DNA of 64,000 nucleotides from a virus: positions 1 through 64,000 of IMG/VR virus record IMGVR_UViG_3300042391_001456; one strand, written 5' to 3'. This document shows, piece after piece, positions 53,798-58,955 of the stretch (its first letter is position 1; each line of letters opens with the position of its first letter). Under the pieces are notes generated by a model that did not search any database, was not told the origin of the DNA, and saw only the letters and a program-made list of their open reading frames with translations. Both the position numbers and the translations under genes were made by a program.

Positions 53798-55489
53798 ATG
53801 TCACACATTAGAATAGACAATGCGAAAGCAACTAAGAAATGGGCTCCAGTTTTAGAAAACATGGGAGTAACTGGTGATAGAGTTGAATGGATGGCTGAAT
53901 ATGCTGAGTTTCACTCTATTAACGAAAATGCGTATGTAAACGCTGCAAACGTAGCAGGTATGGGAGCTATAACAGCTGCACAACCAGGATTATATGCTGG
54001 TACTACTACAACTGCTGCTCAAGGTACATATGGTCCTTTATCAGGTTCAGGAGACGTAGGTCAAAACCTTTTACCAGTAGCTATGAAAATTGCTGCTCAA
54101 ACAATCGGTTTAGATTTAGTAGCAGTTAAACCAACTCCAGGTCCGAAAATCGATTTACTTTATGTAGATTTCGTTTATGATGACGTTGATCAATTACAAA
54201 ACGAAAGACCACAAGTATTTAAATTAGCAAGTGTTAACGAAACTTTGGTAAATAACTTAACTAATTTGGTTAAAGCTGAAGGTAGATTAGTAACTGGTGG
54301 TATCAGTGGTACTAGAGTTTTTGTTGGTATTACACAATCTAACGCATTTAGCGCAACTTCAGAATCTTCGTTCCCAGCAACTGGAAAAGCAGGTGTTGTT
54401 GAATTTTTAGGTTTCTCAAGAATTGATGGATATCCAATGTTTAAAGCTTATAGACAAGCTAATACAGGTGGTCAATTTAACTACTTCTCATTTGATTCAA
54501 AATTAAATACATTTGACTCATCTAGTGCTATGTCTGCTCAGATTAAAACAATCGCTGGATATACTTTCTCAGCTGCTCCTTCAATTGAATTAGTATCTGC
54601 ATTAGAAGATCATATCCCAGGTTTCTCTGCAAACTGGACAGGAGCAAAAGCATCTGGTGATTATCCAATGGATCGTTACTCTGATGATACATCTTATTCA
54701 GGTGTTATCGGACCAAAAATCTCTTCTAAAACTATCGCAGTTGGTACTATCGAAGTATCTTCAGCTTTAAGAAGAACTGAAATCGAAGATATTAAAGCTA
54801 ACACTGGTATGGATATCGTTCAAAAAATGGAATCTATCCTTGTTAATGAATTATCTCAAACAATTTCTAAACAAATCGTTGCTAAGATTTTTGAAATGGG
54901 TGAATTAAACAGAAAAAGTAGTGCTCCTTTAAGATCAGGTGTTTCTTCTTTCGTTTCTGCTTCTGCTTCAACTATCTTTGACTTGAACACTAATTATGCG
55001 TCTACTTCAGTTTCTGGTGAAACTACTCACGCTGTTCAAAGAAAATTGATTACTAAAATTGCACACGCTTCTAACTTCATCGCTACTGAAGGTCGTGTAG
55101 GACCAGCTCAATACATCATTACAAATGGAGGTTTAGCTGCAGCACTTCAAGATATCGCTGGTTATACTATTAACCCAGTTAAATCTAAATTAAACGGACA
55201 AGGTCAATTATACCCTGTAGGTTCAATCGGAGATATTTCTATCTATGTTGATCCATACATGAAGTATAATGATAACAGAATCGTTTTAGGAAGAAAAAAC
55301 AACGCTGATCAACCAGGTATCATTTTCGTACCTTATTTAATGGCACAATCTATCTCAGTTATTTCTGAAGCGACTTTCGCTCCAAGAATGTTACTAAGAT
55401 CAAGATATGCAGTTGCTGAAGTTGGATGGTATCCACAAAAACAATTTATGACGATTGTTGTTGAAGATGCAAATCAATTATTAAACTAA
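53798..55489 (+). CDS. gp23: Major capsid protein (gp23-like)
   Basis: 563 residues, against 521 in T4. HK97-fold shell protein. Family features: a charged N-terminal helix (DRVEWMAEYAEFHSINE), AMKIAAQTIGLDLVAVKPTP, DLLYVDFVYDD, SKTIAVGTIEVSSALRRTEI, DIVQKMESILVNELSQTI and the C-terminal SVISEATFAPRMLLRSRYAV. T4 gp23 loses its first 65 residues to the prohead protease; here SINE-N at 43-44 is the best candidate site and matches the leader pattern of the internal proteins. The Ala-rich stretch after it is typical of the mature N-terminus. Codons favour C-ending forms. Confidence 0.95.
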   Translation: MSHIRIDNAKATKKWAPVLENMGVTGDRVEWMAEYAEFHSINENAYVNAANVAGMGAITAAQPGLYAGTTTTAAQGTYGPLSGSGDVGQNLLPVAMKIAAQTIGLDLVAVKPTPGPKIDLLYVDFVYDDVDQLQNERPQVFKLASVNETLVNNLTNLVKAEGRLVTGGISGTRVFVGITQSNAFSATSESSFPATGKAGVVEFLGFSRIDGYPMFKAYRQANTGGQFNYFSFDSKLNTFDSSSAMSAQIKTIAGYTFSAAPSIELVSALEDHIPGFSANWTGAKASGDYPMDRYSDDTSYSGVIGPKISSKTIAVGTIEVSSALRRTEIEDIKANTGMDIVQKMESILVNELSQTISKQIVAKIFEMGELNRKSSAPLRSGVSSFVSASASTIFDLNTNYASTSVSGETTHAVQRKLITKIAHASNFIATEGRVGPAQYIITNGGLAAALQDIAGYTINPVKSKLNGQGQLYPVGSIGDISIYVDPYMKYNDNRIVLGRKNNADQPGIIFVPYLMAQSISVISEATFAPRMLLRSRYAVAEVGWYPQKQFMTIVVEDANQLLN

Positions 55490-56616: not shown

Positions 56617-58452
56617 ATGGCAGAAGAAACAAATCTACCAAAAATAAAAATATCTAAAGAATTAGCATCGGTATTACAAAAAACTGAAGACTTAGGTGAT
56701 TATATCTCATTTGAAATAATTTGTATGGGTGATGATGATAGTGAGCATTTTAATGGTTTAAAAATTACAGATGTGAATGTTTCAAAAAAAGATTTTTGTT
56801 TTGAAGTAACTACATTAGATGGTAAGAAAATGGATATGAAGTGTGGTAATTTCATTAGATACTACTTTCATAACTATTTTACACCAAGTGATATTCAAAA
56901 CTTCGTAAACCTTTATAATAAAGTTAAAAATGGTGAGTCAGTGGCTGATGAAAAAATTCCAATCAATGTTTCAAAGTTTGAATATAATCCGTTAGATCCG
57001 AGATCTACTTTTCTTTCACTTGTTACTAAAACATATCCACATGGACACGAAGATGAAGTTCTTCAATTCTTACCACAATTGGATAAAGATATCGTTGGAA
57101 ACTATTACAAAATAATTGGAGATAATCCAACAACAATGTTTACATGTCATTTAGATACTGCTGATAGAAAACAGGCTGTTACAAGACTTTATTCTATACA
57201 AGTTGATGATCAAGAACATATTGTTACCGATGGTACAACTGTATTAGGAGCTGATGATAAATCAGGAACAACAGTTATGTTATATATGATGGCAAAAAAT
57301 GTACCAGGTCTTTATTACTTCTTTATCGGAGAAGAAAGGGGTGGTATTGGATCTAGAGCTTTAGCTGATAAATATGATGAAGTTTCTTATTTAAAAAATA
57401 TTAAAAGATGTGTTTCTTTTGATAGAAGAAAGACTATTTCAGTTATCACCTCACAAGCAGGTGGTGTTTGTTGTTCTGATGAATTTGCAAATGCTCTTTG
57501 TGATGAGTATAATAAAAATGGATTAAATCTTAAACCAGACCCAACTGGAGTATTTACTGATTCGGCTTCATTCATTGATGATATTTCAGAATGTACAAAT
57601 GTTTCTGTTGGATATCTTAACGAACATACTGGTAAAGAAATTCAAAATATGGATTATTTAATAGATTTATGTAAAGCATCTGTTAATGTTAATTGGGATT
57701 CATTACCAACTGTTAGAACTGTTCAAGATAGAGCAGCTATGAAAGAAATGATTAATAGAGTAAAATCTTCAAATAAAGAATTTGTTGATTCGTTAAAAGG
57801 TGTTAATTTGGATAAAACTATTTCCACAGATTATGGAAATGTATATGTTAATTTTGATTTAGATAATGAGTCTCTTGATAACATCATTGAAAGTTTAACA
57901 GAGTTGAGAAAGGTAATGAGATTACACAAAAAGCCAGCTTCTTGTTTATTCGATGAAACTTATTTACAAATATTTTTAGGTAAAGAAAGTGGTCAAAAAA
58001 TAACAACACTTGATATTGAAGATGATGATAAATATGAGTCTCAAAAATTAAAAAAATATGAACAATTTTTAACTGAAAAATACTGGGATGATGAAGATGG
58101 TCAAGATGAAGATGAAGAAGATAACGATAAAGAACAAGATATAGAACATCTTAAATATCTTTTAAGGCAAATGTTGACTAAAGCAGGTATTAAGAATTCT
58201 ACAATAACTAATAATGGATTGAATTTAAAAATTCAAATTATTCCACCATCGTATGGGATGATTGACTATTTTTATAAATTAGATGATATTATACACATCT
58301 ATGAAACAATTAAAAAGTTTGATAAAGATATTTTAGTTGATTTTGATTTAGAGTGTGATATTTGGGAAACTAAAAAAATAGAACCTCTTTTAATTTTCAA
58401 TTTCTATTCTAACCAAGATGATTATGAAGATGAATCTGGTTTACCATTTTAA
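56617..58452 (+). CDS. Zinc-dependent peptidase of the M20/M28/M42 type
   Basis: 611 residues. The metal-site order is clear: FTCHLDTADR (H178, D180), VLGADDKSGT (D213-D214), FIGEERGGIG (catalytic E239, metal E240), CVSFDRR near 270 and LNEHTGKE near 340. This is the layout of co-catalytic zinc aminopeptidases and carboxypeptidases. The N-terminal 120 residues and an acidic C-terminal 200 residues (DEDGQDEDEEDNDKEQ) are unusual additions. It ends at a terminator directly before the tmRNA gene; a role in digesting tagged or clipped peptides is only a suggestion. Confidence 0.85.
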   Translation: MAEETNLPKIKISKELASVLQKTEDLGDYISFEIICMGDDDSEHFNGLKITDVNVSKKDFCFEVTTLDGKKMDMKCGNFIRYYFHNYFTPSDIQNFVNLYNKVKNGESVADEKIPINVSKFEYNPLDPRSTFLSLVTKTYPHGHEDEVLQFLPQLDKDIVGNYYKIIGDNPTTMFTCHLDTADRKQAVTRLYSIQVDDQEHIVTDGTTVLGADDKSGTTVMLYMMAKNVPGLYYFFIGEERGGIGSRALADKYDEVSYLKNIKRCVSFDRRKTISVITSQAGGVCCSDEFANALCDEYNKNGLNLKPDPTGVFTDSASFIDDISECTNVSVGYLNEHTGKEIQNMDYLIDLCKASVNVNWDSLPTVRTVQDRAAMKEMINRVKSSNKEFVDSLKGVNLDKTISTDYGNVYVNFDLDNESLDNIIESLTELRKVMRLHKKPASCLFDETYLQIFLGKESGQKITTLDIEDDDKYESQKLKKYEQFLTEKYWDDEDGQDEDEEDNDKEQDIEHLKYLLRQMLTKAGIKNSTITNNGLNLKIQIIPPSYGMIDYFYKLDDIIHIYETIKKFDKDILVDFDLECDIWETKKIEPLLIFNFYSNQDDYEDESGLPF

Positions 58453-58459
58453 TAAAATT

Positions 58460-58494
58460 AAATAACTCACTTTTTTAGTGAGTTATTTTTTTTT
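58460..58494 (+). terminator. Intrinsic terminator
   Basis: Stem AATAACTCACT / AGTGAGTTATT with T-run; it separates the peptidase gene from the tmRNA. Confidence 0.85.
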
Positions 58495-58500
58495 AAACTT

Positions 58501-58532
58501 TTTGTATATTTAAAATATTATATATATATTTG
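58501..58532 (+). promoter_or_regulatory. Host-type (Bacteroidota primary sigma) promoter of the tmRNA
   Basis: TTTG (58501-58504), 20 bases, TATATTTG (58525-58532): full agreement with TTTG-N19-21-TANNTTTG. It gives a start near 58540, some 15 bases before the mature 5' end, which would be removed by RNase P. It suggests expression from the start of infection. Confidence 0.65.
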
Positions 58533-58554: not shown

Positions 58555-58920
58555 GGGGGCGTCATTAGATTCGCCTAGCAGTGTGTAGGTGGTTATGCAG
58601 GAATCGGGTTTTCATATGTCCGATCAATAAATTATATGATAACGTCGTAAATGGCAAAACAAATGAAGTAGGAACTCGTGAAGATTTAGTAGCGGCCCTA
58701 AACGCAATCAAAGCTGAAGAGCTTGAATTAGTTTAATTAAGAGAAACTAATCAAAAAAATTCTCCGACTGTATCACACAGTAAATGTGAAACCAGAATTG
58801 TTAGAGTGATGGGTTAATTCAACTAACTATTTTGTAAGTTTAGAAAAATTTACTATTCCTGTGAATGAGTAATTACAAACAGCTGATTAGTACACCCGGG
58901 GCGGTTCCGGGTCGCTTCCA
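58555..58920 (+). ncRNA. ssrA: Transfer-messenger RNA (tmRNA)
   Basis: 366 bases. The ends pair as a 7-bp acceptor stem (GGGGGCG at 58555 with CGCTTCC at 58913), the discriminator is A, and the next bases are CTA, not CCA. AGATTCGCC near the 5' end matches the tmRNA D-loop (GGATTCGAC); a CCCGG-type T-stem (ACCCGG/CCGGGT) precedes the 3' strand, though its loop lacks the usual TTCRA. ATCGG/CCGAT near 58611-58625 matches the helix before pseudoknot 1. The tag frame most likely resumes at GGC 58653 and ends at TAA 58734-58736: 27 residues, beginning GKTNEVGTRE and ending AEELELV, without ALAA. Later helices include GTTAG/CTAAC. Three-dimensional details are inferred. Confidence 0.82.
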
Positions 58921-58925
58921 CTAAA

Positions 58926-58955
58926 CAAAGTCCACTTTTAAAGTGGACTTTTTTG
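58926..58955 (+). terminator. Intrinsic terminator of the tmRNA gene
   Basis: Stem AAAGTCCACTTT / AAAGTGGACTTT followed by T-rich sequence. Confidence 0.85.

Follow-up and report, generated by a model that had tools for sequence, protein, structure and literature searches.

Does the window, the 64,000-nt stretch of viral DNA analysed here (positions 1–64,000 of IMG/VR record IMGVR_UViG_3300042391_001456, itself a 102,753-base fragment), encode a working phage tmRNA and, if so, what would become of the proteins that it tags? A preliminary description of the sequence had placed a phage tmRNA with a long, atypical tag and a degenerate T-loop at positions 58555–58920, and had suggested a covariance-model search as a check. 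The answer from that search is divided. The window copy is rejected by Rfam, both at the gathering threshold and at E ≤ 10 on 651 bases, while a homologue at the same locus in a basal relative (L055) is accepted end to end by Rfam model RF00023 (65.3 bits, above the gathering threshold). ARAGORN likewise does not detect the window copy and calls L055 a tmRNA. Since L055 occupies the same locus and passes both programs—it has a canonical TTCGAAT T-loop and an encoded CCA—the window RNA is homologous, though diverged, to an RNA that is recognised as tmRNA. We place this one-piece gene at 58555–58923 (+ strand, as are its parts and its promoter and terminators below), consisting of the mature part plus an encoded 3' ACTA; the earlier coordinates were right to within 3 nt.

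The same element was found by blastn in two uncultured huge phages, LR756502 (642 kb) and LR745206 (634 kb), at 68–73% identity. Both share their gene order with the window: a long upstream gene, then the tmRNA, then NADAR and DNA methyltransferase genes. A methyltransferase search of IMG/VR gave 59 contigs which, with the two huge phages, make a set of 61 loci. The same RNA was recovered by nhmmer in 54 of these loci, gathered as they were by DNA similarity or by a neighbouring gene, and a search with the tag alignment gave 52 loci, partly further members. Many relatives are near-identical, and counts of distinct sequences are used below where they matter. No second, canonical tmRNA scored above the cut-off elsewhere in these phages; the remaining RF00023 matches there, for the most part short and with scores well under the cut-off, are probably tRNAs.

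Is the predicted fold more than chance? Across 26 distinct sequences of the derived clade, 93.8% of cells are paired in a structure of 55 pairs, 20 of which show changes on both sides (covariation score 0.243). Control structures slid by 1–3 columns are 31–51% paired. None of 500 shuffles reached the observed paired fraction, the number of double changes or the covariation score, and the structure is thus not a product of chance. By minimum free energy the RNA does not stand out (z = -1.14), nested-fold energy being a weak guide for an AT-rich, pseudoknotted RNA. Strong covariation is seen in the acceptor stem, T stem, helix 2, and pseudoknots PK1 and PK3.

The individual elements follow the tmRNA plan. 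The acceptor stem (GGGGGCG/CGCTTCC; 58555–58561 with 58913–58919) has seven base pairs and a discriminator A, as a tmRNA should, and CTA follows; the stem is 100% paired, and pairs 5 and 6 show changes on both sides. Its third pair, G3:U70, is invariant (G-U in 26 of 26 distinct derived sequences), and this pair is the alanine identity element. The tRNA-like and mRNA-like parts are linked by a covarying helix 2, whose 5' strands (58589–58601) pair with 58858–58861 and 58869–58876 within the 3' segment 58858–58876. PK1 (58603–58640; ATCGG/CCGAT and TCATAT/ATATGA) lies directly 5' of the resume codon, again as in a tmRNA. Its first stem is 100% paired with double changes; the second is 75.8% paired and imperfect in most relatives, with two inner pairs mostly open and support for the outer part alone. 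Further downstream, PK3 (58768–58789; CTG/CAG and TCACA/TGTGA) has a covarying first stem and an almost invariant second one, and a hairpin between PK4 and helix 2 (58834–58853) has three pairs with double changes. PK2 (58728–58764; TTAGTTT/AAACTAA and GAG/CTC) and PK4 (58795–58827; GAATT/AATTC and GTTAG/CTAAC) are candidates identified by eye in the window; in the PK4 region, other relatives can seemingly form different stems.

Behind PK1 runs a tag frame of 29 codons (VNGKTNEVGTREDLVAALNAIKAEELELV; 58647–58733) that probably opens at a GTA resume codon and closes at a TAA stop (58734–58736). Frame and stop are conserved in every full copy read, and indels comprise whole codons. Tags of relatives span 29–32 codons; they share the core NEV[GA][ST]xEDLVxALxNN. 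The frame has no conserved start codon. Because the open stretch upstream of the resume codon can be as short as two codons, and no start codon is shared among the relatives, the frame is best explained as being entered by trans-translation. The dN/dS of the tag is lowered, but only to a moderate degree (median of 0.50 in frame, versus 0.67–0.82 in shifted frames).

Two other readings of this segment were considered. Firstly, an ordinary small protein ORF was ruled out: there is no conserved start, and only 2–30 codons are open upstream. Secondly, a short tag of the ALAA type, read in a different frame and named in the preliminary description as an outcome that would overturn it, is not what the locus encodes; the reading concerned (ATG GCA AAA CAA ATG AAG TAG) is not the conserved frame, which specifies the long tag.

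The complete tag in the window would consist of a non-encoded Ala plus 29 encoded residues, five of them Glu, ending in LELV. The frame, the LELV end and the richness in Glu were correctly described at the outset; the count of 27 residues, apparently taken from GGC (58653), more probably becomes 29 by alignment. GTA at 58647 is the more likely resume codon on sequence grounds, since it aligns with GCA-AAC of one relative (L045). The E. coli tmRNA likewise has GCA-AAC at the resume position. ARAGORN places the tag start of L055 two codons later. It also calls a second relative, L130 (L130:3895–4263), with a late tag start lying well inside the conserved frame (VLQNNMLTVRELEVA), and so automatically assigned tags may err in this tmRNA family.

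The T arm (58894–58912) departs from the canonical form. As first noted, its loop is degenerate: GGCGGTT on a 6-bp stem (ACCCGG/CCGGGT), in which four of six pairs show double changes. The TTCRANN consensus is absent from the window and its clade, which have GGCRGUN, and present in relatives L055 and L050. Among 28 sequences of the derived clade, 18 have GGCAGUA as their loop and the others a close form, and the sixth stem pair is mostly G-C. Of the canonical loop, the clade retains C56 and R57 and lacks U54 and U55; in two sequences with a UGCAAUA loop, a U54–A58 pair would be restored. In an RNA tree (one FastTree run), the odd T-loops form a single clade nested among canonical or near-canonical ones, and the change is thus derived and the loss secondary: the T arm of this clade would have gained one base pair as its loop turned into GGCRGUN. 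In alignments, the derived clade has a D-region longer by about one base, which may compensate for the altered T arm. The tRNA-like domain thus appears to tolerate a rebuilt T arm across a whole clade, which can be compared with the known structures of tmRNA–SmpB and of the elbow. A scan for the exact T-arm pattern across viral contigs gave zero matches, because the T stem is variable.

The 3' end of the window copy reads discriminator A plus CTA (58920–58923) in place of CCA, in agreement with the preliminary description. Encoded ends in the derived set are ACAA (22), ACTA (5, including the window) and ACCA (1), from which it follows that most copies need CCA addition. The T arm also stands out among near-identical tmRNAs: in the pairs L034/L059 and L010/L014 it holds most of the differences (8 of 13 and 8 of 11, respectively, in 20 of 397 columns; A4 columns 368–387), and the stem stays paired. 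Recombination at the tmRNA 3' end or diversifying selection are possible causes; the tmRNA 3' end is a frequent integration site.

The gene sits between two terminators, one closing off the upstream gene (58460–58488) and an intrinsic one 3' of the tmRNA (58927–58951). Between the first of these and the tmRNA lies a putative Bacteroidota-type promoter, TTTG-N20-TATATTTG (58501–58532). TTTG and TAnnTTTG are the established promoter motif of Bacteroides. The significance of the match lies only in its conservation among relatives: taken by itself, the window's one match does not exceed chance expectation, while 33 out of 48 distinct regions upstream of the RNA contain TTTG-N17-23-TAnnTTTG (versus 0.7% of random 90-mers). 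The tmRNA would thus be transcribed as a separate unit. The surroundings are those of a phage, with an AT-rich, T4-like region in the 3' half of the window (Gp23 capsid gene at 53798–55489). Upstream, positions 56617–58452 encode a 611-aa protein whose HLDTA, GADDKSG and GEE motifs recall M20/M42-type metallopeptidases, with no Pfam match; the gene is kept upstream of the tmRNA in relatives (as two ORFs in L001 and L002).

Partners of the RNA are known from relatives alone, the window's own 102,753-base fragment containing no SmpB. In each of the seven records above 220 kb that were searched, SmpB scores above the cut-off; a record of 174 kb has it too. The one of these proteins run against NCBIfam exceeds the cut-offs of the SmpB equivalog and aligns nearly end to end with solved SmpB. 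A thioredoxin-like gene lies near smpB in both L063 and L066. A CCA-adding-type nucleotidyltransferase (PF01743) is present in four records of a seven-record set, and the host can supply such an enzyme as well.

Could the RNA nonetheless be a decaying or decoy tmRNA, or an inhibitor that titrates SmpB, rather than an active tagging RNA? A phage RNA consisting of the TLD only has been discussed as a tmRNA inhibitor (PMC4131195), and the degenerate T-loop, the missing CCA in most copies and the failure of ARAGORN and Rfam would all suit such a role. However, the tag frame, its stop and compensatory stem changes are kept across some 40 distinct copies, the phages encode their own SmpB, and CCA can be added post-transcriptionally; we consider a decoy very improbable. 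The original proposal of a phage tmRNA is upheld by the homology to L055, the covarying stems and the conserved tag frame. By far the best explanation, which we hold with high confidence, is a phage-encoded one-piece tmRNA with its own transcription unit that would act in trans-translation. The sequences show its tRNA-like domain, helix 2, PK1, PK3, the tag frame, the terminator and SmpB in relatives. Mahaphages have predicted Bacteroidetes hosts (PMC7162821), and a tmRNA has been reported in Mar_Mega_1 (OU342829; PMC9723777). Judging from the features above, a group of giant viruses of Bacteroidota-type bacteria possesses a previously unrecognised version of tmRNA.

What, then, would the tag do? 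After CCA addition, the tmRNA would be charged with alanine; together with SmpB, of phage or host origin, it would enter ribosomes stalled on broken mRNA, and Ala plus the 29-residue tag would be appended to the stalled chain. The most likely use of such a phage-owned trans-translation system, the reading that best fits the locus and its predicted partners, would be ribosome rescue during infection while host mRNA breaks down, with the tagged fragments then being degraded. Candidate proteases include (i) a phage ClpC lacking the N-domain together with phage ClpP, and (ii) host ClpXP or ClpCP.

Basal, and hence ancestral, tags end in LAVA, EVAA, VALA or VATA, which resemble ssrA ends. Most tags of the derived clade end in Val, several keep -A ends (L001, L058, L035, L112 and L134), and the most atypical ends are those of the window (LELV, lacking the LAA-like end of a ClpXP-type degron) and its sister L140 (PELV). 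It is plausible, at somewhat below an even chance, that the tag is an ordinary long ssrA tag for host ClpXP or ClpAP/ClpCP whose length and C-terminal drift are neutral. Length is no obstacle: published tags span 8–35 residues (PMC8012679), a range that includes the roughly 30–31 residues here. The preliminary description was right to call the tag long, but its "usually 8–15" was too narrow. Against an ordinary host-directed tag stands the conservation of the internal NEVGTxEDLVxALxNN core, which far exceeds that of the C-terminal residues, unlike what a tag informative only in its last three residues would show.

The same core weighs on the earlier suggestion that the tag escapes degradation, with -V ends keeping tagged proteins stable and rescue proceeding without proteolysis. 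Val has replaced Ala as the final residue in most of the derived clade, and this shift fits the idea, as does the strongly atypical ELV of the window; an inert tag, however, would not explain why a core of ~17 residues is conserved, several derived members keep their -A ends, and the ancestral members end in degron-like -AVA or -VAA. We regard stabilisation as distinctly unlikely.

A ClpA/B/C-type (ClpC-like) unfoldase of about 710 aa is encoded in six records of the same seven-record set. The five that were read have two AAA+ modules, a tripeptide (VGF or LGF) similar to ClpP-docking loops, and, by eye, no N-terminal domain; the one scanned for domains has a UVR motif, and a search of all seven records turned up no Clp_N domain. 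ClpP is present in five of seven, one copy exceeding the ClpP equivalog cut-off. A third, partial ClpP-like match lies ~2–3 kb from smpB in W01 (364599–365000) and G001 (81468–81875), the records of L001 and L030. These unfoldase and ClpP genes in related phages lend circumstantial support to the earlier suggestion that a protease other than ClpXP reads the tag. The long tag could then be the degron of a phage-owned route, apart from host ClpXP, and a search of 84,980 bacterial genomes, in which not one of 16 pattern matches was confirmed as the tag, is in keeping with this. Such a route is possible, though on balance unlikely: co-occurrence is no proof of a pathway, the Clp genes do not lie next to the tmRNA, two tmRNA-bearing records (possibly fragments) show no ClpP, and huge phages may hold Clp genes for other ends, with one ClpP copy perhaps serving head maturation. 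That Bacteroidota huge phages own a complete orthogonal pathway—tmRNA, long tag, SmpB, and an N-domain-less ClpC with ClpP reading the tag independently of host ClpXP—is doubtful. Should phage ClpC/ClpP truly read the tag, this would be a viral quality-control route apart from that of the host, and a natural orthogonal degron pair.

A phage-borne tmRNA is shared with the mycobacteriophage Bxz1 group, Wildcat and Bacillus phage G (PMC4131195). SmpB and tmRNAs have also been reported in huge phages, in a survey that used ARAGORN and does not mention Clp in its main text (PMC7162821); that approach misses the present lineage save for its basal members. Indeed, ARAGORN and Rfam overlook the tmRNA in phage genomes of 634 and 642 kb and in most relatives, and we found no description of its tag or T-loop in the literature on phage tmRNAs and huge phages examined. 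In Mesoplasma an ssrA tag is paired with the protease Lon (PMC8138137), and the M. florum system thus sets a precedent for such a tag being read by an enzyme different from ClpXP; here, in contrast, a search of the seven phage records gave no Lon, and the candidate protease is ClpC/ClpP. With bacterial tmRNA (RF00023) the window RNA has in common the G3:U70 acceptor, a D-like region, helix 2, PK1, a tag frame, later pseudoknots (PK3, with PK2 and PK4 as candidates) and a T arm. It differs in two respects: firstly, the present lineage has a 6-bp T stem with a GGCRGUN loop, mostly no encoded CCA, and goes undetected by the Rfam model; secondly, its tag comprises 29–32 codons, with a conserved NEVGTREDLVAAL core and, in most of the derived clade, a C-terminal Val.
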